64,000 nucleotides of DNA from Winogradskyella pelagia (GTDB taxonomy: Bacteria > Bacteroidota > Bacteroidia > Flavobacteriales > Flavobacteriaceae), in assembly GCF_017581965.1 (NCBI RefSeq), contig NZ_JAGEVF010000001.1, positions 62,001 to 126,000 on the forward strand. The letters are read 5' to 3'. Below, piece after piece: positions 53,098-64,000 of the stretch. A program made the position numbers and the translations under genes. The first letter of the stretch is position 1. Each line of letters opens with the position of its first letter. The notes beneath the pieces were generated by a model that was not told the DNA's origin, made no database searches, and was given only the letters and a program-made list of their open reading frames with translations.

Positions 53098-54462
53098 TTG
53101 GTTTTAACCTCAAAAAACAATTATTTTGAACAAACCTTAAGGCAACCTATATACTTGCAACTTTTTGACCTTTCATTAAAATTATCAGGCTTTAAAATAG
53201 ATGAGGCCAAAGCTGCATTTGCCAAAATAAAGGCATTGGCAAATGAAGACCTCCAAAAATACCAAGAGAATAAAAAACGTGAAATCCTTAATTATCATTT
53301 AAAATACAACTCGTTTTATAAATCATTTGGGAAAAATATTGACGTTAATGATTGGAATTCGGTTCCTGTTTTAAGAAAGAAGGATTTACAGCAACCACTA
53401 GAAAATAGATTATCAGAAGGTTTTACAAAGAACAACATTTATATAAATAAGACCTCTGGTAGCTCTGGACATCCTTTTGTTTTCGCAAAAGATAAATGGT
53501 GCCACGCTTTGACATGGGCTGAGATAATGAATCGTTTTTCTTGGTATGGCATTGATTTTAATACGTCTACCCAAGCACGTTTTTATGGAATTCCTCTCGA
53601 TAAAAAAGGATATTACAAAGAACGATTCAAGGATTTTTTAAGTAACCGTTATCGTTTCTCAATTTTTGATCTTACGGATAAGACTTTAAGCGGTGCATTA
53701 AATAAATTCAAATCTACGCCTTTTGACTACATTAATGGTTACACCAGTGCAATCGTTCAATTTGCAAAGTTTCTTAAATCTAAAGATTTGATTTTAAAAT
53801 CTATTTGCCCTAGTTTGTCCGTTTGTATTGTAACTGCAGAGATGCTTTTTAAAGACGATAAAGATTTATTAGAACACCATCTAGGAGTCCCGGTAATAAA
53901 TGAATATGGTGCTTCTGAATTGGGTTTGATTGCTTTTCAAAATCTAAATAATGAGTGGCAATTAAATACCGAAACCTTATATGTTGAGGTTTTGGATGAT
54001 AATGATTCAGCTATTACTAATGGTAGTGCGGGACGACTAGTGGTAACGTCTTTGTACAACAAGGCGCATCCTTTTATTCGTTATGATTTAGGAGATGTTG
54101 GACAAATTTCCACTAAAAGTTCCAATATCACTCCTAAGCTTGAAAGCCTAATTGGCCGCACCAATGATATAGCCCTATTGCCTAGTGGAAAAAAGGCAGC
54201 AGGACTAACCTTTTATTATATTACAAAAAGCGTTATTGAGGATGATGGCAACGTCTCTGAATTTATTATTGAGCAGCATAGACCGAATTCCCTTAAGGTG
54301 GTTTATTGCTCAAAATTTGCGCTGACGGAAGCCAAAAAGAAATTAATAGCTCAGGAAATGGAGACCTATCTAGAACCAGGTCTCACTGTTAATTTTAATA
54401 GAGTAAAACAAATAGTAAGGTCTAAATCGGGTAAGTTGAAGCAGTTTAATAGGTTATTTTAA
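53098..54462 (+). CDS. CapK/PaaK-like adenylate-forming ligase
   Basis: The 454-residue enzyme belongs to the phenylacetate-CoA ligase-like branch of adenylate-forming proteins (CapK type) found in capsule and O-antigen loci. The ATP loop is TSGSSGHP, the A5-like block is INEYGASELG, and the ATP/hinge Asp lies in IRYDLGDVG. The frame starts immediately after a TAA with TTG at 53098 and has no ATG before residue 100, so TTG is the likely start. A role in activating an acyl group for sugar modification is inferred. The GT4 gene follows after two bases. Confidence 0.82.
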   Translation: MVLTSKNNYFEQTLRQPIYLQLFDLSLKLSGFKIDEAKAAFAKIKALANEDLQKYQENKKREILNYHLKYNSFYKSFGKNIDVNDWNSVPVLRKKDLQQPLENRLSEGFTKNNIYINKTSGSSGHPFVFAKDKWCHALTWAEIMNRFSWYGIDFNTSTQARFYGIPLDKKGYYKERFKDFLSNRYRFSIFDLTDKTLSGALNKFKSTPFDYINGYTSAIVQFAKFLKSKDLILKSICPSLSVCIVTAEMLFKDDKDLLEHHLGVPVINEYGASELGLIAFQNLNNEWQLNTETLYVEVLDDNDSAITNGSAGRLVVTSLYNKAHPFIRYDLGDVGQISTKSSNITPKLESLIGRTNDIALLPSGKKAAGLTFYYITKSVIEDDGNVSEFIIEQHRPNSLKVVYCSKFALTEAKKKLIAQEMETYLEPGLTVNFNRVKQIVRSKSGKLKQFNRLF

Positions 54463-54464
54463 CT

Positions 54465-55640
54465 ATGATTGATAAGAAAAAAGAAAGCCTCATGATTATA
54501 ACAAATTACTATCCTCCGGAGATAGGAGCTGCTTCTAATAGAATTTTTCATTTGGCTGAAGGTTTAAGTTCAGATTATACAGTTAAAGTTGTTACACCTT
54601 TACCAAATTATCCTACTGGCAGAATATTTAAAGACTATAGAAATAAGTTTACTTCCAAATCTATCGAGAACGGTATTCAAATACATAGATTGTGGATTTT
54701 TGCTTCAGTTTCAAAAAATAAAATATCGCGGTTATTAGCAATGCTTTCCTACAGTTTTAGTTTGATATTATACTTTTTAAGGCAACGCACACCTAATAAG
54801 GTGATAATCCAATCCCCTCCTCTAATCGTTGCTTTTATAAGTATCTTTCTACTTAAATCTAAGAAAAGAAAAATAATTCTTAACGTAAGTGATTTATGGC
54901 CACGCGCTGGCCTAGAATTAGGTGCACTAAAAAAAAATTGGTTTTATTCCGTTCTAAGGCAGATGGAAAGGTTCAATTATTTAAATTCTAATATCATATT
55001 AGGGCAAAGCAATGAAATCTTAAAACATGTTAGTGAAATAAATCCAAAGGCCAAAACTCATCTTTATAGAAACTATCCTATTATTGAATTAAAAGAAATT
55101 CCAACTATAGAAAAATCTAATAAATCCTTAACTATAGTATATGCTGGTCTTTTAGGTGTGGCACAAGGCATTCTTAAATTATGCCAAAACTTAGACTTTA
55201 CAGATATTGAGTTACATATTTATGGCTCTGGTGCTGAAGAAAAAGAGATTTTGGACTTTATGCAAAAGCATCCCACTTTACCTATTTTCATGCATGGTAA
55301 ATTAGATAGAAACCAACTTCATAACGAACTAATGAATTACGATTTGGCTATAGTTCCGCTAATAAAACGTATATACGGTTCTGTACCATCAAAAATTTTT
55401 GAGTTTTCAAAATTAGGCTTGCCCTTGCTGTACTTCGGTGGGGGTGAAGGTGAAAAAATTATCCACAATTATAAATTAGGTTGGGTAGCTGATGTCGGAA
55501 ATTACGAAAACTTAAACTCTATTATTGAAACAATTAAATCTAATGGTTTAGAGATACAGCAAAAAAAAGACATACAGGTTAGGGCTAATAAGGCATTTAG
55601 TTTTGAGGGGCAATTATTAGACCTAAAGAAGACTATTTAG
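54465..55640 (+). CDS. Glycosyltransferase family 4, WbuB-like
   Basis: The 391-residue GT-B enzyme has the N-terminal TNYYPPEIGAASNR acceptor block, a hydrophobic segment near 95-125, and the donor-binding SVPSKIFEFSKLGLPLLY block. It resembles WbuB-type transferases that add an N-acetylaminosugar in O-antigen or capsule synthesis. It is coupled to the CapK-like gene and converges with the WcaJ-type gene, overlapping by four bases. Confidence 0.88.
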   Translation: MIDKKKESLMIITNYYPPEIGAASNRIFHLAEGLSSDYTVKVVTPLPNYPTGRIFKDYRNKFTSKSIENGIQIHRLWIFASVSKNKISRLLAMLSYSFSLILYFLRQRTPNKVIIQSPPLIVAFISIFLLKSKKRKIILNVSDLWPRAGLELGALKKNWFYSVLRQMERFNYLNSNIILGQSNEILKHVSEINPKAKTHLYRNYPIIELKEIPTIEKSNKSLTIVYAGLLGVAQGILKLCQNLDFTDIELHIYGSGAEEKEILDFMQKHPTLPIFMHGKLDRNQLHNELMNYDLAIVPLIKRIYGSVPSKIFEFSKLGLPLLYFGGGEGEKIIHNYKLGWVADVGNYENLNSIIETIKSNGLEIQQKKDIQVRANKAFSFEGQLLDLKKTI

Positions 55641-56992
55641 TAGGCTTTATCCTCTCCCTTAACTGCATTCATAAAGGTTTGAAAAATGATTTTAAGGTCC
55701 AGCAAAAGTGACCAATTTTCAATATAAAAAATATCATATTTAACTCTTCCAATAATATCCTTATCACTTTCAACTTCGCCACGATAACCGCTTATTTGTG
55801 CGAGACCTGTAATTCCAGGTTTTACAAAATGGCGCACCATAAATTTATCTATTCGTTTTGCATACATATTTGTATGACTTACCATATGAGGCCTAGGACC
55901 AACAACCGACATATCACCAAAAAGAACATTGAAAAACTGTGGTAATTCATCAATGCTTGTTTTTCTAATAAACCTTCCTACTTTAGTAACACGCTGATCA
56001 TCTCTAGTCGCCTGATAGAGATGTGCATTTTTATTTGGTGTCATTGATCTAAACTTATAACAATCAAATTCTTTATAATTAAACCCGTTACGAGATTGTT
56101 TAAAGAACACAGGGCCTTTAGACTCAAGCTTAATAAGAATAGCAATGATTGGTGTAAGCCAAGACAGAATAAAGACTATTACTAGTCCAGAGAAGAAAAT
56201 ATCAAAGCTTCTTTTAACTATAGTATTAACAGAATCTTCGAGAGGTATTGTTCTAAGGGTTAGGATGGGGATATAATCGTAATAGTCGTATCTCAATTTT
56301 TTGGAGTAAATCTCCTTACTGTCTGGGATAAACTTTACAATTTTAAGATTGTTGTCTGCAAAGTCTACAACTTCGGCAATTTGAGAATTGGATAATTCAG
56401 AAATAGAACAGTAAATCTCATCAATTCCTTTTTCAAGAACGTATTCAAAACACCTTGTAAGGTTAAAGTCGTCCTGTTTAAAATTAAATGTTTTTTTATG
56501 AAGATAACCATATTCTGGGTTTTTATTAAAAAATTGCTCTAGAGCTACAGTCTTTTTGTTGTAACCAAAGATGACCGTATTCCTGTAATTTCCGCCAAAT
56601 GACGCGCGATAATTTTGAAGCAGGTAATATACAGTAAATTTTGCTGCAGATATTAAAATTACACTTAGAAGTACGTATTGGATAACGGGCTTGGGATAAA
56701 TCTTTAATTCGTAATAAATCCCAAAAAAAGCAAATACAATAATTAAGAAAAAAACAGATTGCTTTATTATTAGCGCTAGGATATTTACTGGTCTAGTATA
56801 ACGATATACTTGATAAAAATTAGAGTATACTGAAAGTAGTACCCAACTAAGAGATATATAAAGAATAAACGCTATTGGATCTTTGTCCATAAGAAGAAAC
56901 AGTATAGCAACACCATTAATTATACTTAAATCTATGAAATAAGAAATGGGTCTTAAATAGCCTGAATATCTTCCGTGTTTGAATAAGCTCAA
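55637..56992 (-). CDS. Undecaprenyl-phosphate sugar-1-phosphate transferase, WcaJ/WbaP type
   Basis: This enzyme starts glycan assembly by moving a sugar-1-phosphate onto undecaprenyl phosphate. The 451-residue protein has about four N-terminal membrane helices, a CoA-binding-like domain (about 140-240) and the catalytic sugar transferase domain (about 262-451) with KRSFDIFFSG, SIDELPQFFNVL (catalytic Asp-Glu) and VVGPRPHM. The start is TTG at 56992. It sits 126 bp from the GT4 gene, with a possible promoter in the gap. Confidence 0.93.
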   Translation of the reverse strand: MSLFKHGRYSGYLRPISYFIDLSIINGVAILFLLMDKDPIAFILYISLSWVLLSVYSNFYQVYRYTRPVNILALIIKQSVFFLIIVFAFFGIYYELKIYPKPVIQYVLLSVILISAAKFTVYYLLQNYRASFGGNYRNTVIFGYNKKTVALEQFFNKNPEYGYLHKKTFNFKQDDFNLTRCFEYVLEKGIDEIYCSISELSNSQIAEVVDFADNNLKIVKFIPDSKEIYSKKLRYDYYDYIPILTLRTIPLEDSVNTIVKRSFDIFFSGLVIVFILSWLTPIIAILIKLESKGPVFFKQSRNGFNYKEFDCYKFRSMTPNKNAHLYQATRDDQRVTKVGRFIRKTSIDELPQFFNVLFGDMSVVGPRPHMVSHTNMYAKRIDKFMVRHFVKPGITGLAQISGYRGEVESDKDIIGRVKYDIFYIENWSLLLDLKIIFQTFMNAVKGEDKAY

Positions 56993-57118
56993 ATCTTTTT
57001 AAACTTGATTAGAATTAAAGTAAAATAGTCTTGGTTTAAAGTTTTGTTGCAAAAGTCAAATTAACAAACCTGCTGTAAAATACAATCTTTTTTTTTATTA
57101 AGAATGAACAGTTAAAAT

Positions 57119-58228
57119 CTAAGTATTTTTGAACCTATCATAGCTATCAGTTACAAAATTTAAAATTTCCTTTTCAAATCGCTTTTTTGAAAAACGTTCC
57201 GCATTTGTTCTAATGTCTTGTGGGTCTAATTCCAGCTTTTCAAATTGGCCAATTGCATCAATTAAAGACTCAATATTTTGTTGCTTAAATAAAACTCCTG
57301 TTTTTTTGTCAATTACCGTTTCCTCAAGACCTCCCTTTCCAAGGCCAATAACAGGTGTGCCAGAAGCTTGTGCTTCAACAGGTATAATTCCAAAATCCTC
57401 TTCAGCCGCAAAAACAAAAGCTCTAGCCTTAGCCAAATAGCTTTTTAGCTCTTCTTCGGTTAAAAACCCAACGAGTTCAATATTAGTTTTGGCCATAGCT
57501 TTTATGTTTTTATATTCCGGCCCGTCCCCAGCAACTACTAGTTTTTTTTCTGGCAAATTATTGAAAGCCTTTACAATAAGCTCAATTTTCTTATATGGCA
57601 CCAATCTTGATGCGGTAAAGTAATAATTATCCTTTGTTTCTTCTACCCTAAACATGTCTACATCAACTGGAGGATATATTACATGAGCCTCTCGATTGTA
57701 CACTTTTTTAATACGGCCCTTTATGTAATTAGAATTAGCGACAAAAGCATCAACTCGGTTTGAATTTATGACATCCCAAAGCCTTATTTTATGAAGAACT
57801 CTCTTCGCGTAAATACCCTTAATTCTATTAAATCTAGAATCTCTAAGGTATTGGTGATATAAATCCCAAGCATAGCGCATGGGGGAATGACAATAACAAA
57901 TATGTAGCTGGTTTTGATTGGTCAAAACCCCTTTACTAATTGACGCTGAAGAACTTAATACTAAATCATAACTACTTAAATCAAATTGCTCTATTGCATA
58001 CGGGAACAATTGCAAAAACTTTCTGTGATTTGATTTGGCTGTTGGTAAGCTCTGGATAAAACTAGTATTAACAGATTCTCCTTTGAGAATATAGTCCCTG
58101 TCTGTCTCCGATAAGAAATCTACCAAGGCAAAGTGGTCAAAATCATCCCAAACATTGTTCAGGGAGTGTATAACCTTTTCCGCTCCACCATTAACATAAT
58201 ACCAATCATGAACTAGTGCTTTTTTCAT
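57119..58228 (-). CDS. Glycosyltransferase family 4
   Basis: The 369-residue GT-B enzyme has the start VHDWYYVNGGAEKVIH and the donor-site E-x7-E motif in AEEDFGIIPVEAQASG. It resembles mannosyl/rhamnosyl transferases of the WbaZ-like group that extend a lipid-linked repeat unit. Its first 23 bases overlap the end of the Wzy-like gene, so the two are translationally coupled. Confidence 0.9.
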   Translation of the reverse strand: MKKALVHDWYYVNGGAEKVIHSLNNVWDDFDHFALVDFLSETDRDYILKGESVNTSFIQSLPTAKSNHRKFLQLFPYAIEQFDLSSYDLVLSSSASISKGVLTNQNQLHICYCHSPMRYAWDLYHQYLRDSRFNRIKGIYAKRVLHKIRLWDVINSNRVDAFVANSNYIKGRIKKVYNREAHVIYPPVDVDMFRVEETKDNYYFTASRLVPYKKIELIVKAFNNLPEKKLVVAGDGPEYKNIKAMAKTNIELVGFLTEEELKSYLAKARAFVFAAEEDFGIIPVEAQASGTPVIGLGKGGLEETVIDKKTGVLFKQQNIESLIDAIGQFEKLELDPQDIRTNAERFSKKRFEKEILNFVTDSYDRFKNT

Positions 58229-59465
58229 AAATCAACTTTGACAAAAACCGATACGAGACAATAGCAATAAATATTCCTACAATAGGATAAATACCCGCCC
58301 CTTTCATATAATTAAATATTGGTAAAAATAAATTAAATATTGCGAGATAAATAAGTAATGGAGCATAAATAGTGTTGACTTTTGAATTGTTATAAATATG
58401 CCTCTGAAATGAACCTAATAGAAAAAAAACTAGAGTGGCGAACCACCTAAAATCTATATAAAAACTTCCAAAAGTAGTAAGATAAACTATTTTTCTTGGT
58501 GATGGGTTGGTATATTCAATTCCCTTGGCAAGTCCCATTCTTTGTGCAAATTTAAAAAAAGGATTAAACACATACATTCCATAGGATACGGGTAATTCGG
58601 ACTTATTGTATATATGATTAAACTCAAAAAAACCGTGATTTATGTATTGCCCTGTTTGAAGGGTTATAAAAGTTACGGCCCTCATAAAAGAATTAGAGTC
58701 TTCATTCTGTATATAGGCTATTGTTTTATCCTTTGGTCTTAGTAAATCATTATATCTACCTTCAAGAACATGCTTATATACGTTTTGATTTTCTGCTCGT
58801 GGAGATTCTCTTCCAATCAAAACAAAATATGAAATAGCCATTAGAGTCAATGCTGCAGCAAAAAACAAACCTAAACTCTTAACACCAACTTTAACCCTTC
58901 TGGAAACCAACACCGAAATAATAATAATTAAAGTAAGGTCAAAAAATGGTTTTCTCGTGCCAAATAATATAGCTTCTGGCACTACGAACCCTAAAAGTAA
59001 GATAGCGCAAATAAGATAAATTCTCAGAGTGTTTCTTTCATGGAGCGTTAATACAAATGGGAAAAAATAAAGCGACTTTAAAACAGCAGCCATTAAAAGC
59101 AGTACATTACTATTGGTGTTATTAATAAAACTCAGTCGTCTATTTTCAATAGGTGTATTGAAAAAGGACAGTTCACGGACATAAAATAAATCAATCCAAC
59201 GTAGGACAAAACTAATGGTTATAACCATTATTAAATACTTTATAAATAAAGGGTTGTTTATTCTAATTTCATTTTTTTCTATCCTATTTGGTATAGCAAT
59301 AAATCCAAAAACCATTGCTATATAACAGAGACAAATAAAACCCACGGTATATATGTTCACGTCTTCAACTACTTCTACTGGGATAAGACTAAAAGATAGC
59401 AGCCATAGCAAAATACCTAGAACTAGACTTCCATAGAATAAACGATATGTCAAAACATGTCGCAT
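58206..59465 (-). CDS. Wzy-like oligosaccharide repeat-unit polymerase
   Basis: The 419-residue protein has 10-12 membrane helices and a large periplasmic loop in the middle (about 215-310, with GRESPRAENQNVYKHVLEGRY), the usual plan for Wzy polymerases, which are too divergent to name by sequence. It lies between the flippase and a GT4 gene, which supports the role. It starts two bases after the flippase stop. Confidence 0.75.
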   Translation of the reverse strand: MRHVLTYRLFYGSLVLGILLWLLSFSLIPVEVVEDVNIYTVGFICLCYIAMVFGFIAIPNRIEKNEIRINNPLFIKYLIMVITISFVLRWIDLFYVRELSFFNTPIENRRLSFINNTNSNVLLLMAAVLKSLYFFPFVLTLHERNTLRIYLICAILLLGFVVPEAILFGTRKPFFDLTLIIIISVLVSRRVKVGVKSLGLFFAAALTLMAISYFVLIGRESPRAENQNVYKHVLEGRYNDLLRPKDKTIAYIQNEDSNSFMRAVTFITLQTGQYINHGFFEFNHIYNKSELPVSYGMYVFNPFFKFAQRMGLAKGIEYTNPSPRKIVYLTTFGSFYIDFRWFATLVFFLLGSFQRHIYNNSKVNTIYAPLLIYLAIFNLFLPIFNYMKGAGIYPIVGIFIAIVSYRFLSKLIYEKSTSS

Positions 59466-59467
59466 CC

Positions 59468-60727
59468 TTAAAAAACAATAAAATAATAAGCGCTTTCGAT
59501 TAAAAAAACCAAGGCTAACGAAAGGGATGACTTTGAGAATTTAATATCTTTTTTTCTTAGGGTATAGTATTGGATTTGGGCCGCAAAAAAAATGCAAGTA
59601 AAATGGGCATAAACAAGATTTGCGAAACTTATATAGTTTGAAAAGAATAGGAGCGGTAGAGTAAAGCATACAATTAATACCAAAAAAAGGCCATTATTCT
59701 TTCTGGCTAAATTCTCGCGGTCTATTACATTCGAGTTTAATGCAGTTGCAATCCACATTACCATCTGACACGACAAGAGAAAATATACCCCTTTATAGGT
59801 ATTATAGGTGTCCTTAAAAAATTGGGAGAGCGTATCCACAATAAAAGGGGCAACAAAATAAATTAAAAGAGATAATATTGAAATCCCAACAAAAAACAAA
59901 TGAAAGTATTTATCCAACACCTTAGGTTGTGATGTATATATTTTCTTAAAAAAGGCAATATTTATAACTTGATGAATCATCACCACGATAGCAGCAAGTC
60001 TAAAATAAAAAGCATAAATCCCAACTTCATTGAATGTAAAAAAATACTCTACAATTATCCTACCCGACGTTGTTATAAGAAAAATAAGAAAAGTAGACAG
60101 TAATATATGAATACTAAACCTTAGAATCTTCCGATACGCACTAATAAAGCCTTTATTATTAGAGTTTAAAAACCTGACTACTGCTAAAAACACATAAGTT
60201 AAAGCATAGCAAATTATAAAGTAATTGATTGTTTCAATGTTTTCTGGCATATAGCCCATCCAAAAACTAGCAATAAAGCCAAATAGAACCAAATATATCC
60301 CAGAATCTAAAACAACAGCTAAACTCGATTTTTCATGGGACTTTAACTGGGTGGAATAGAACATTTGATTTGATATAATATAGGACACATTAAAGGACAT
60401 ATAGAGCACCATATCCAATCCCCAAAACCAATAGGCCAACTGATTTACTATAAATGGTATCGTCAAAACAATAGGGTGAAACAAAAATCCTGCCTGCACA
60501 CTTTTGTCTTCTTTTTTAATGATAAAATATGGGTACGCCCCAGGAACACCAAGATTAAGAAGTGTATTAATCAACATTCCCAATCCGGCCAATGCATACT
60601 CCAAAATTCCATAATCTGTTGTATTAAGTACATCTGCTAAAAGTAACGGTACAAAATAAACGGCTGCTTTTGCAACAACAAAAACAGCCCCAAACCAAAT
60701 ATGCCTTTTAACCGTCCGAATAATCAC
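59468..60727 (-). CDS. Wzx-like flippase
   Basis: The 419-residue, about 12-helix protein belongs to the MOP/polysaccharide transport family; it would flip the lipid-linked repeat unit to the periplasm for the polymerase. The start is GTG at 60727 (IIRTVKRHIWFGAVF), 18 bp after the beta-helix lipoprotein. A second flippase is encoded at 31-32.5 kb, so this one is probably specific to this locus. Confidence 0.85.
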   Translation of the reverse strand: MIIRTVKRHIWFGAVFVVAKAAVYFVPLLLADVLNTTDYGILEYALAGLGMLINTLLNLGVPGAYPYFIIKKEDKSVQAGFLFHPIVLTIPFIVNQLAYWFWGLDMVLYMSFNVSYIISNQMFYSTQLKSHEKSSLAVVLDSGIYLVLFGFIASFWMGYMPENIETINYFIICYALTYVFLAVVRFLNSNNKGFISAYRKILRFSIHILLSTFLIFLITTSGRIIVEYFFTFNEVGIYAFYFRLAAIVVMIHQVINIAFFKKIYTSQPKVLDKYFHLFFVGISILSLLIYFVAPFIVDTLSQFFKDTYNTYKGVYFLLSCQMVMWIATALNSNVIDRENLARKNNGLFLVLIVCFTLPLLFFSNYISFANLVYAHFTCIFFAAQIQYYTLRKKDIKFSKSSLSLALVFLIESAYYFIVF

Positions 60728-60745: not shown

Positions 60746-61786
60746 TTATTGGTTTTCCATAATTTCAACAATTACACCATTTGACTCTTCCTCTAATATA
60801 CTGATTTTAGCATTGTCGTTTTTCACAATCATTTTTTCAATTATAACAGGTCTCTGTTTATCTCCAGCATCAAAATGAGCGGTATATTTACCTTTAGAAT
60901 TTTCCTCATTTATTGTTATAGATTCAATAAAAGTATTATAACATTTATTAATCCAGAGAGCCTTAAATTCTTTTTCTTCTCCAATCTTAGCATCTTGCAT
61001 AGGGTCCATCCCATCAGAAGAACCCATACCAAACTTATCAATTAAAACTTTACCAATTACATGGTCGCTTCCTGTTAAATAAATACCGTGTCTGTCTGAA
61101 GACTTTATATGAATCTCACCAATATCTACATTAATTGGATTGTTATTCCAGCCATCCACGGCGAGAGCAGCATGAGTATACTTATCCTTGGCTGTATCAG
61201 AGCCCAAATCATCTACCTCCAAATACCCAATTTTAATGTCCTTACTGCCATAGTAAATCTGACAGCCTCTAGGTCTTGACTTTCGAAGGTTTAAAGTATT
61301 TGCTCTTATAAGAATTGAATCAATAGCGATATCTTCACTAGCCGTAATGCTTACTTTATCGTTAGAAATCAATGTTCCCTTGAGATTAATATTTTTAGAT
61401 TCTGAAAGACTGTCTTTATTTTTTATTATCTGAATCAAGTCAAATTCAGAATTATTAAATCGAAGATTTAAATTCTTTCTTGAATCAATGATAAGATTCA
61501 TTTTATAGTAACCTGAAGGTATTTGCATTTCAATCCCTTGATTCTCTGCTAAATCCATAATAGTTTCTAGTCTTGTATCTCCAGTGTGTGGATGTTTTAA
61601 TCTAGCCGTTTCGGCCGTAACCCCATAACGTCTTGCATCTCCAACAGGATAATTGTCGTCCAAAACATAAGCAGAGTCGTCAAAAACTTCTTCGATTTCT
61701 TTAGGGGTCTCCTGTTTTGCAGATTTATCGTCTTTACAGGCCGTTACAATAAGAGCTAACAATAAAATAAATCTAATATTTTTCAT
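60746..61786 (-). CDS. Right-handed beta-helix lipoprotein, copy B
   Basis: The 346-residue product has a lipoprotein signal (Cys 17, LIVTAC), an acidic/Lys-rich spacer, and a mature domain of repeated short strands typical of a pectin-lyase-like right-handed beta-helix. It shares blocks with the right-edge lipoprotein: YPVGDARRYG, DGWNNNP, GIYLTG and INKCYNTFIESI. The fold suggests a polysaccharide lyase, epimerase or binding surface, but no catalytic residues are obvious. It overlaps the O-antigen ligase end by 14 bases. Confidence 0.75.
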   Translation of the reverse strand: MKNIRFILLLALIVTACKDDKSAKQETPKEIEEVFDDSAYVLDDNYPVGDARRYGVTAETARLKHPHTGDTRLETIMDLAENQGIEMQIPSGYYKMNLIIDSRKNLNLRFNNSEFDLIQIIKNKDSLSESKNINLKGTLISNDKVSITASEDIAIDSILIRANTLNLRKSRPRGCQIYYGSKDIKIGYLEVDDLGSDTAKDKYTHAALAVDGWNNNPINVDIGEIHIKSSDRHGIYLTGSDHVIGKVLIDKFGMGSSDGMDPMQDAKIGEEKEFKALWINKCYNTFIESITINEENSKGKYTAHFDAGDKQRPVIIEKMIVKNDNAKISILEEESNGVIVEIMENQ

Positions 61787-62990
61787 AGTTTGTATTTTTG
61801 TGATTTAAAAAAAGTGGTATAACAAAAGTAAAAATAATAACGCCATGTTGTCTAAATAGATAAGACTCAAGTCCACATGCTATTGCAAAAAACAAAACAG
61901 TTATTAATCCAAGTTGATTAGATGTAAAGGCGCTTTTTATAAGAAGTGCCATTAAAACCAAAAATACGAGACCGCCTAGTATGCCAGATTTTAAAAATTC
62001 TGACAGGTATTGGTTGTGGTTGTTGTATTGGTTAAGCATACCTGCCTTAAAATTAATAATCTCGTATTGTTTGTTTAAAACATCTTGTCTGTCACCAATT
62101 CCCACTCCAAAGGGTAAAGCAGCGGCAATCTCCTTTGAAGCTAGATAATTGATTAAAAGCCGGTGCTCTAACGTGTTTTTGGTAACTGTAAACCTGTTCT
62201 TTGTAATAATGGTGTTTAAATCAAAGTCTAACGTGTTCCCAAAGGTTTGTATTCTCTGGTGAACAACAGGAATTTGAAATGCCAAGATGCCTAATAATAT
62301 ACCTAGCAATGCCGTTGCAAGCATTTTTTTTAAGTTATCTCGTTTCTTTATAATTAAAAACAGCCATAAAGCTATTAACAGTAAAACAGAGAGTTTATTT
62401 CCTAATATAACAATAATTCCAAGGGTTGATAACAAGATGATTGCATTTAAAAGGATGTTATTCTTAAGGGAAATCTCTCTTGAGCTTACAATTAACGGAA
62501 TTAGTAAAATAAAAATCAAATAGAATTGACTTACTCCTAATTTTTCTTCTAAGGTAAAATGAACAAATGTGCTTACAACTCGATTATCTATAAAAATATG
62601 AATAAATAGAAGGGCTAAAAACAAAATGGGAATAGTAAACTTTAAATACAGAAGTAATTTTTGAAACAGATTATTATTTTTAGGCTCTGCATAAATTACC
62701 AATGGCAGAAAAAGCAAAGGTAGCAAAACCTCAACACGTCTTAATCCTTCTGTGGTATTGGTTGAATACAACAAACTAAATACTTGTATAAGGAATAACA
62801 GTATAAAGCCAAGAACTATTTTATTAGCATAAAGTGTTTTGAATTTGGTTTTTAAATTGCTAGGGAGGTCAAACAAGAAGAGAGCAAGAAGCAAATAAGC
62901 TACAATATTGGAAACTGCATAGGACACAACAAATGATACAAGCATAAGGTAGCAGAGGATATAAAAAACATATTGTTTTTTAGTTACCAT
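61773..62990 (-). CDS. O-antigen ligase family protein
   Basis: The 405-residue membrane protein, with 10-12 helices, a large periplasmic loop near 240-325 and the YNNHNQYLSEFLKSGILGG block, fits WaaL-type ligases, which join the finished glycan to lipid A-core or another acceptor. ATG at 62990 is used (VTKKQYVFY), because an earlier in-frame ATG at 63071 would add a polar stretch that belongs to the upstream gene. It overlaps beta-helix copy A by 11 bases and copy B by 14 bases. Confidence 0.85.
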   Translation of the reverse strand: MVTKKQYVFYILCYLMLVSFVVSYAVSNIVAYLLLALFLFDLPSNLKTKFKTLYANKIVLGFILLFLIQVFSLLYSTNTTEGLRRVEVLLPLLFLPLVIYAEPKNNNLFQKLLLYLKFTIPILFLALLFIHIFIDNRVVSTFVHFTLEEKLGVSQFYLIFILLIPLIVSSREISLKNNILLNAIILLSTLGIIVILGNKLSVLLLIALWLFLIIKKRDNLKKMLATALLGILLGILAFQIPVVHQRIQTFGNTLDFDLNTIITKNRFTVTKNTLEHRLLINYLASKEIAAALPFGVGIGDRQDVLNKQYEIINFKAGMLNQYNNHNQYLSEFLKSGILGGLVFLVLMALLIKSAFTSNQLGLITVLFFAIACGLESYLFRQHGVIIFTFVIPLFLNHKNTNYEKY

Positions 62991-64000
62991 GTTCCAATTC
63001 ATTTTTAACGAGCACATTGGTAAGAACATTGTCATATATCGGCATATCCTTTGCAAGACTGTTAAATTCAATATTTTCTATAATGCACGGTTCCGGATAA
63101 AAGCCCAAATCAAATCTTGCACTATAGGTTCTAGAGCGGTCATTGGCATAAATCTGCAAGGTATCTATGGTGCAGTCATTGCATTTATTAAACCACGCTC
63201 CTACAAAATCGCGCTCTGAGCCTAGCTCGGCATCCTCCAAACCAAACATGTTTTTATTTGTGCCCAATCCAAAGTTTTCAATCTTAATTCTCTTTATGCT
63301 ATGGTTTTTTCCTGTAAGATACAATGCGGTCCTATCGGTATTTTTAATTAAAAGATTATCTATTGTAATACCTTCAGGATTATTATTCCAACCATGAACC
63401 TGAAATGCTGCTGCACTATACTTAAAAAAATCGTCTTCTGTTCCTCCTGTTTGTTCAATTTCTAATGTTCTTATTTCAATGTTTTTAGTGCCTAGGTAAA
63501 TGCTCATCCCTCTGTTCTTTTTTTTATAAAGGCTTTTAGCTTTATTAGATTTTATGAGTAATGTATCAAACTTTATATCGTTTGAATTACGCATAAAAAC
63601 CTTATCAAGAACTGTCAATTTTCCTTCAAAAACTAGCCTTTGGGATTTTTCATTGTCCTTATCAATAATTTGAAATGTTCCTGCTATAATAGCATCATCA
63701 AAAACTAATTTAACATCACTTAGCCCTTGAAGCAATAGATTGAGATAATAGGTGCCCTTAACAAACTTTAATGGGATTCCGTGGTCTGCTAACTCCATTA
63801 AAGATAAGAGATCCTTATCAGCATAATAATTGTCAGGATATATACCATAGCGTCGCACATCGCCTTTAGGAAAGCTGTCATTTAAAACATATGCCTTATC
63901 GTCAAAAGCATTGTTGAGTATTGGAGCTTCTAGCAAAATAATGGAATCATTGTTTTTACAGGTTAAAAACAATAAGAACAAAATAATGGTTGTAATCCTA
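62980..64000 (-). CDS. Right-handed beta-helix lipoprotein, copy A, 5' end missing
   Basis: This is the paralogue of the 60.7-61.8 kb lipoprotein. The frame is open to the right edge; the visible start (RITTIILFLLFLTC) is a lipoprotein signal with the lipobox Cys, so the initiation codon should lie within a few codons outside the window. The mature domain shares YVLNDSFPKGDVRRYG, GWNNNP and ALYLTG with copy B and has the same beta-helix pattern. Its stop lies inside the O-antigen ligase start, implying coupled translation. Confidence 0.75.
   Translation of the reverse strand, partial: RITTIILFLLFLTCKNNDSIILLEAPILNNAFDDKAYVLNDSFPKGDVRRYGIYPDNYYADKDLLSLMELADHGIPLKFVKGTYYLNLLLQGLSDVKLVFDDAIIAGTFQIIDKDNEKSQRLVFEGKLTVLDKVFMRNSNDIKFDTLLIKSNKAKSLYKKKNRGMSIYLGTKNIEIRTLEIEQTGGTEDDFFKYSAAAFQVHGWNNNPEGITIDNLLIKNTDRTALYLTGKNHSIKRIKIENFGLGTNKNMFGLEDAELGSERDFVGAWFNKCNDCTIDTLQIYANDRSRTYSARFDLGFYPEPCIIENIEFNSLAKDMPIYDNVLTNVLVKNELEHGN

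Follow-up and report, generated by a model that had tools for sequence, protein, structure and literature searches.

Why should the gene of an O-antigen ligase lie wedged between, and overlap, the genes of two related lipoproteins? The question arises in a 64,000-nucleotide stretch of Winogradskyella pelagia DNA (contig NZ_JAGEVF010000001.1, positions 62,001 to 126,000 of the forward strand; hereafter the window, numbered from its first letter), near the end of which the minus strand encodes, in order of transcription, the upstream beta-helix lipoprotein BH1 (342 aa, 62980..64000 plus 8 bases past the window end), a Wzy_C protein that has a WaaL fold (61773..62990, 405 aa when read from its ATG at 62990) and the downstream beta-helix lipoprotein BH2 (346 aa, 60746..61786). 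The answer we favour, tentatively and at a probability of about 0.42, is that the lipoproteins are dedicated partners that would process the glycan their ligase transfers. BH1 is complete on the contig beyond the window (62980-64008 in window-equivalent positions), and both lipoproteins were assigned from their open reading frames (ORFs) and a lipobox with Cys17, BH2 from a structural model as well. They share GDxRRYG and GWNNNP blocks, the former at residues 49-55 of each (GDVRRYG of BH1, 63844..63864, and GDARRYG of BH2, 61622..61642, both on the minus strand), and are 37% identical over residues 6-321 (E 3.9e-56), in agreement with an earlier sequence-only reading that had described two paralogues with shared blocks on either side of the ligase. 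An artefact or pseudogene is excluded, as both frames are open and conserved position by position.

The same reading had stressed the overlaps between the three genes. Their lengths, 11 and 14 bases, were given correctly, the first of them following from the ATG at 62990 (the mechanical ORF of the Wzy_C protein opens at TTG 63071 and contains further ATGs before that one), but the stress on them proved uninformative. Counted from the first ATG, 22 of 31 lipoprotein/Wzy_C junctions overlap; among same-strand junctions (gaps under 500 bases) of these 26 loci in general, 190 of 395 do. Overlapping junctions being common in these operons, short overlaps mean little by themselves and were discarded as a sign of coupling. 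The gene upstream of BH1, which is polymerase-like, polytopic and 441 aa long, likewise shares 11 bases with it.

What argues for a real link is the distribution of the family. A first search matched 5 of 60 genomes, own genome included, all five within the 37 genomes of the genus. A sample of 397 Flavobacteriaceae genomes gave 17 matches, of which 14 were kept and three partial ones set aside (G101, G102, G150; E 1.2e-4 to 7.5e-4), and a named genome collection added 16 loci, including ones from Gelidibacter, Gaetbulibacter, Aquimarina and Aurantibacter; in Winogradskyella thalassocola DSM 15363 (L040) the genes are arranged as in the window. The phylum-wide and order-wide samples, which re-use some genomes, matched 3 of 395 each, again with the own genome included; outside Flavobacteriaceae these two samples held no convincing member, the other matches being partial and at E 4.5e-5 or weaker. 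The profile searches fully scored five candidates per genome, so weak members could be missed; among the sampled genomes the family was found solely in Flavobacteriaceae. With duplicates merged, we obtained 35 lipoprotein sequences in 26 loci (the near-copies L043 and L044 both counted), nine with two copies and 17 with one. In all 26, no more than a few genes separate a Wzy_C gene from the lipoprotein gene, and in 24 the two adjoin directly, the exceptions being L046 and L051, where a flippase gene stands between the two. That count includes the Wzy_C gene of L044 (11123-12327), which is split into two ORFs (213 and 134 aa), lies beside an intact lipoprotein gene and is whole in L043; the split could be an assembly error.

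The association is concentrated in one lineage of ligases. A tree of ligases, 25 of them linked to the lipoprotein and 33 others, places 19 of the linked ones in a single clade, clade I (support 100/100), and five in a second (100/99) whose sister group is without the lipoprotein, while the L059 ligase sits on a third, long branch of unsure placement; a second tree, built in quick mode, agrees. Searched against the 397 genomes, a clade I profile found 12 at E 4.2e-131 or better, the next at 3.3e-56, and every one of the 12 carries lipoproteins, the other two lipoprotein genomes (G227, G389) having other ligase lineages. Because clade I sequences themselves built the profile, we also scored each member when held out: these scores reached 336-482 bits, and no ligase without lipoprotein exceeded 197. 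The association that the sequence-only reading had suggested thus extends beyond this strain, to 26 distinct loci and to 12 of 12 genomes with a clade I ligase. Nor do ligases as a rule stand beside a lipoprotein: among 44 loci of ligases without the family, a crude scan found three with an adjacent lipobox protein, one of them an AXE1-type esterase, and these short loci yielded no family member at E 0.1. PF04932 matches the window genome in four other places, of which one, a weak match, has cell-division/murein genes around it; no family member is near any of the four. The association of family and ligase is out of the ordinary.

The Wzy_C protein itself is best labelled a ligase. PF04932 scores above cut-off in the window (E 1.3e-9) and matches 25 of 25 lipoprotein-linked ligases (that of L044 left out), and the predicted structure (pLDDT 90.5, 25 sequences) resembles WaaL 7tpg with Z 28.4, an rmsd of 4.0 and 369 residues aligned, the next match being FtsW/RodA at Z 11.5; the O-antigen ligase fold proposed earlier is thus recovered. 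Arg191, Arg265 and His313 are reported as key residues of 7tpg, and the polymerase families of the clan carry Asp/Glu in place of the ligase His, with one exception (PMC10920833). R277 and H325 of the window protein align to Arg265 and His313 and are invariant in 25 of 25 linked ligases, and the Arg191 column (K199 in the window) holds R in 16, K in 8 and F in 1, so that a third have Lys, the window included. It is this combination of the WaaL fold, the kept Arg/His positions and the Asp/Glu of clan polymerases that makes ligase the better label. The HN motif is not peculiar to the lipoprotein-linked clade, as 50 of 51 other ligases carry it. The label leaves the acceptor open because PF04932 includes both WaaL and the PglL protein transferases (PMC3643930). 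PglL_A (PF15864) was absent from the matches of the 25 ligases at E 0.01, where Pfam returned PF04932 and one stray match, and from those of the window ligase at E 1; 9rmk, which is named an oligosaccharyltransferase, matches the ligase profile weakly (E 0.0053).

For the lipoproteins, the model of BH2, the member of the family that was modelled, predicts a right-handed beta-helix with coils of parallel strands (pLDDT 82.8, 8 sequences), a fold that BH1 should share by homology. Among the matches of a VIA fold comparison, the 50 listed have Z 18.1-22.8 over 237-270 aligned residues, the top one among them being alginate lyase 6kfn (Z 22.8), together with AlgE (Z about 20), the adhesin PfbA (about 20), RbmB (18.7), AlgG (18.5) and the Sf6 and HK620 tailspikes; both the predicted fold and the comparison with lyases and epimerases hence bear out the beta-helix that had been read from the sequence. 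Its lipoprotein nature stands equally, the lipobox cysteine column being filled in 35 of 35 sequences, as are D50, R52, R53, Y54 and G55 of the GDxRRYG block. Further polar residues are conserved among 34 members (D231 in 28, R232 in 32, H233 in 25, Y236 in 32, N280 in 27, D306 in 29) and, from the modelled strand order, appear to fall on neighbouring coils along one common face.

No Pfam or NCBIfam family reached its cut-off in 34 members, the nearest being Pect-lyase_RHGA_epim (PF12708; best E 0.16, one of 34) and Beta_helix (PF13229; best E 0.011, four of 34 at E 1), both below their curated cut-offs and neither listed for BH2. Membership of a known family by PDB profile search was likewise rejected (unrelated names, the best KRR1 at E 0.0059), as was an origin from phages or plasmids: BH2 had no tblastn match in 50,697 phage and 72,556 plasmid records, and PHROGs matched one or two of 34 members, at best with E 0.00044. 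Surface lipoproteins of Bacteroidota carry an export signal, K-(D/E)2 or similar, shortly after Cys+1 (PMC5080379). At least two acidic residues stand at +2 to +6 in 9 of 34 members (10 if the upstream protein of L046 is counted from its correct Cys), and [KR]-(D/E)2 follows the Cys in four; BH2 (KDDKS) is among these and fits the signal, and BH1 (KNNDS) does not.

In a tree of the lipoproteins, one clade of 11 rows (95/95) takes in 8 of the 9 downstream copies, and the upstream ones are spread over three or more groups. Over 25 loci and with crude distances, the upstream or single copy correlates with the ligase (r 0.35, p 0.002); for GT1 and the initiating transferase there is no correlation (0.03 and 0.05, respectively). 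Within the nine two-copy loci, the upstream copy tracks the ligase (0.61), and for the downstream copy r is 0.52 with the ligase, 0.71 with Wzx and 0.56 with the initiating transferase, all three being tracked alike.

These data are consistent with a model in which flippase and polymerase would bring to the periplasm a lipid-linked glycan that probably contains pseudaminic acid, the Wzy_C protein would move it onto an acceptor, and the lipid-anchored beta-helices would bind and process the same glycan, by cutting, epimerising or trimming it before or after transfer, yielding a glycan matured at the outer membrane. The sequence-only reading, right on structure and association, had proposed as possible roles that the lipoproteins bind, trim or present the glycan or guide the ligase in its choice of acceptor. 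The fold predictions, the lipobox, the locus content and the exclusive association with the ligase clade are computed; we infer that the lipoproteins act on the glycan and do so catalytically, as well as when they act with respect to ligation and on which side of the membrane. Processing is favoured by the fold that the BH2 model has in common with polysaccharide lyases, epimerases and tailspike glycanases, by the conserved polar residues on neighbouring coils and, by analogy, by WceF and RbmB as precedents for glycanases of beta-helix fold in polysaccharide clusters. Several observations count against it. Beta-helix Z values are evidence of fold, not of function, and Foldseek found no match for the BH2 model at E 0.001. 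The best conserved residues, D50-R52-R53-Y54, sit off the helix in the N-terminal cap, at what we take to be the cap motif site of pectate-lyase-type proteins. D231 is replaced in six and R232 lost in two of 34 members, which is odd for a catalytic site, and DPHD, presumably the catalytic motif of alginate epimerases, occurs in none of the 34, in which no known active site was recognised. Finally, distances of the upstream or single copy also track Wzx (0.40), GT437 (0.46) and the PseI-like synthase (0.26); as these proteins and, by the downstream copy, the initiating transferase are tracked too, the ligase link rests on co-occurrence more than on the correlations.

Pure binding comes close behind processing, since no active-site signature was recognised and D231/R232 are lost in the lineage of L062/L063. 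A beta-helix groove might hold the glycan at the outer membrane, or pass it on unchanged, without catalysis; we regard this as possible if rather unlikely. It would agree with the lipid anchor of all 35 sequences, with the presence of a non-enzymatic beta-helix, the adhesin PfbA, among the fold matches, and with the lectin-like autoagglutination of WceF with its glycan (PMC7949094), but conservation of several polar residues of neighbouring coils across 30-40% identity speaks for more than binding, which by itself also leaves the tie to one ligase clade unexplained. Alternatively, the proteins could be surface or secreted-type depolymerases that loosen the finished polysaccharide of their own cell, unrelated to ligation and placed in the operon for co-expression. 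The likeness to RbmB, a lyase with biofilm-disrupting activity (PMC11637428), is in keeping with such remodelling or release, yet the proteins are lipid-anchored rather than free, and such a role would explain neither why the ligase gene adjoins theirs in 24 of 26 loci nor why no sampled clade I ligase occurs without the lipoprotein; we hold it to be improbable.

A different role is that of substrate: the Wzy_C protein, acting like PglL, would put the locus glycan, or the outer part of an O-glycan, on the flanking lipoproteins, a proposal that we judge improbable. In a variant that we hold to be just as doubtful, a pseudaminic-acid glycan would sit on O-glycosylation sites of both lipoproteins, the surface polysaccharide then being lipoprotein-borne and not on lipid A. 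PF04932 spans WaaL and PglL, and 21 of 31 PglL-like genes lie beside or near a pilin gene (PMC3643930); moreover, the oligosaccharyltransferase and outer-glycan ligase of Bacteroidota are termed undiscovered (PMC12871550). The family has three times as many O-glycosylation sites of the Asp-Ser/Thr-hydrophobic form, D[ST][AILVMT], as its shuffles (101 vs 34), with at least one in 33 of 34 members, against ratios of 0.48 to 1.29 for eight control motifs. The ratio for the same site is 1.00 in 340 proteins without membrane segments, 1.44 in 14 lipobox proteins, 0.90 in 12 PF12708 proteins, 1.03 in 33 window ORFs without signal and 0.35 in 30 SusD-like proteins. In these last (L165-L194), the site is rarer than in shuffles, 17 vs 48, as if avoided, an observation in its own right. 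Against reading the excess as decisive, D[ST]phi ranks 4 of 140 triplet classes, and 2 and 4 of 139 with shared columns discounted, from which much of it is inherited at shared positions; as the motif of the general system, it would also be explained by ordinary O-glycosylation. The excess may thus hint at heavy O-glycosylation and lends weak support to the lipoproteins being acceptors, which would have no need of a conserved beta-helix face, and the ligases themselves, without PglL_A in any of 25 and with WaaL as best PDB fold match, do not point that way.

The surrounding operon is a polysaccharide locus of the Wzx/Wzy kind that includes genes for pseudaminic acid. Transcription runs from PseB, PseC, PseF, PseG, a formyltransferase and PseI through a Capsule_synth-like protein, a 701-aa protein, an Asn_synthase-like protein, a 621-aa protein with a lipoprotein-like start, a hexapeptide transferase, an acyltransferase and the polytopic polymerase-like gene to BH1, Wzy_C and BH2. 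On the minus strand there follow a flippase-like Wzx protein (59468..60727; PF01943, 29.4 bits, cut-off 28.2), a second polymerase-like gene (58206..59465), a group 1 glycosyltransferase (57119..58228; PF00534, E 2.5e-30) and an initiating sugar transferase (55637..56992; PF02397, E 5.1e-67). PseB, PseC, PseF, PseG and PseI score above curated NCBIfam cut-offs, the Capsule_synth-like protein slightly below its own, and 24 of 25 lipoprotein loci checked encode a PseI/NeuB-like synthase. The formyltransferase lies between PseG and PseI, past the window on the same contig (L003 14970-15851), and no PseH-type acetyltransferase was seen among the ORFs listed around it, which makes an N-formyl pseudaminic acid derivative a possible product.

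Besides the ligase, the locus thus has two related polytopic polymerase-like genes, one in the window within 55637-59465 and the 441-aa one past it (L003 3998-5323). Their label has position and hydrophobicity as its sole basis, and neither has a Pfam match (checked to E 1 for the one in the window). The 621-aa and 701-aa proteins of the same operon (L003 7081-8946 and 10492-12597), whose sequences read as beta-helix-like, matched nothing in Pfam at E 0.05 and, by phmmer, nothing in the PDB at E 1; the former has a counterpart in genome G028, the latter in none of the compared loci. A plus-strand gene with a weak AMP-binding match (53098-54462; E 0.048) borders the locus, and its relatives stand next to the loci found in G002, G015 and G028.

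Overall, every clade I ligase found in the 397 genomes comes with one or two lipid-anchored beta-helix proteins, and two further ligase lineages are accompanied by the same family. In the titles and abstract openings covered, with subscription papers mostly outside, we found no beta-helix lipoprotein tied to an O-antigen ligase, and to our knowledge these ligases are thought to act without dedicated lipoprotein partners. Polysaccharide clusters with beta-helix glycanases are known already from WceF and RbmB; the apparently new element is the tie between a clade of ligases and a family of lipoproteins that often come in pairs, and it points to an undescribed partner of the glycan attachment step. 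If such partners process, hold or accept the glycan, an extra step would lie between polymerisation and display. This bears on which ligase completes the O-glycans of Bacteroidota, and, were the lipoproteins acceptors, the Wzy_C protein would be a candidate for the outer-glycan ligase termed undiscovered in a 2025 review of Bacteroidota O-glycosylation (PMC12871550).

Among known systems, WceF of Pantoea stewartii (PMC7949094) likewise is a right-handed beta-helix encoded in the cluster that makes its own glycan, stewartan exopolysaccharide. The likeness is one of fold and setting. WceF forms a tailspike-like trimer and has an exopolysaccharide as its target, whereas the family described here is lipid-anchored, single-domain, often paired and tied to a WaaL-fold ligase. 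RbmB of Vibrio cholerae, which cuts the VPS of its own species (PMC11637428), is a beta-helix of similar size (242 residues aligned), but is a secreted lyase for biofilm dispersal. The epimerases AlgE and AlgG, the latter periplasmic according to PDB titles, share the beta-helix and differ in the DPHD motif that the lipoproteins lack. We know of no ligase encoded beside RbmB. Neither is the set Y149, D152, H154 and D178 used by AlgE7 (PMC8824271) seen in the family. PglL resembles the window protein as a Wzy_C-family transferase adjoining the gene of an exported protein (PMC3643930), from which the latter differs in having no PglL_A match, a beta-helix lipoprotein rather than a pilin as neighbour and a place inside a polysaccharide locus. 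A further parallel is with WaaL (GT121), which transfers glycan to lipid A-core; the window ligase shares its fold and key positions and is set apart from it by the link to lipoprotein partners.

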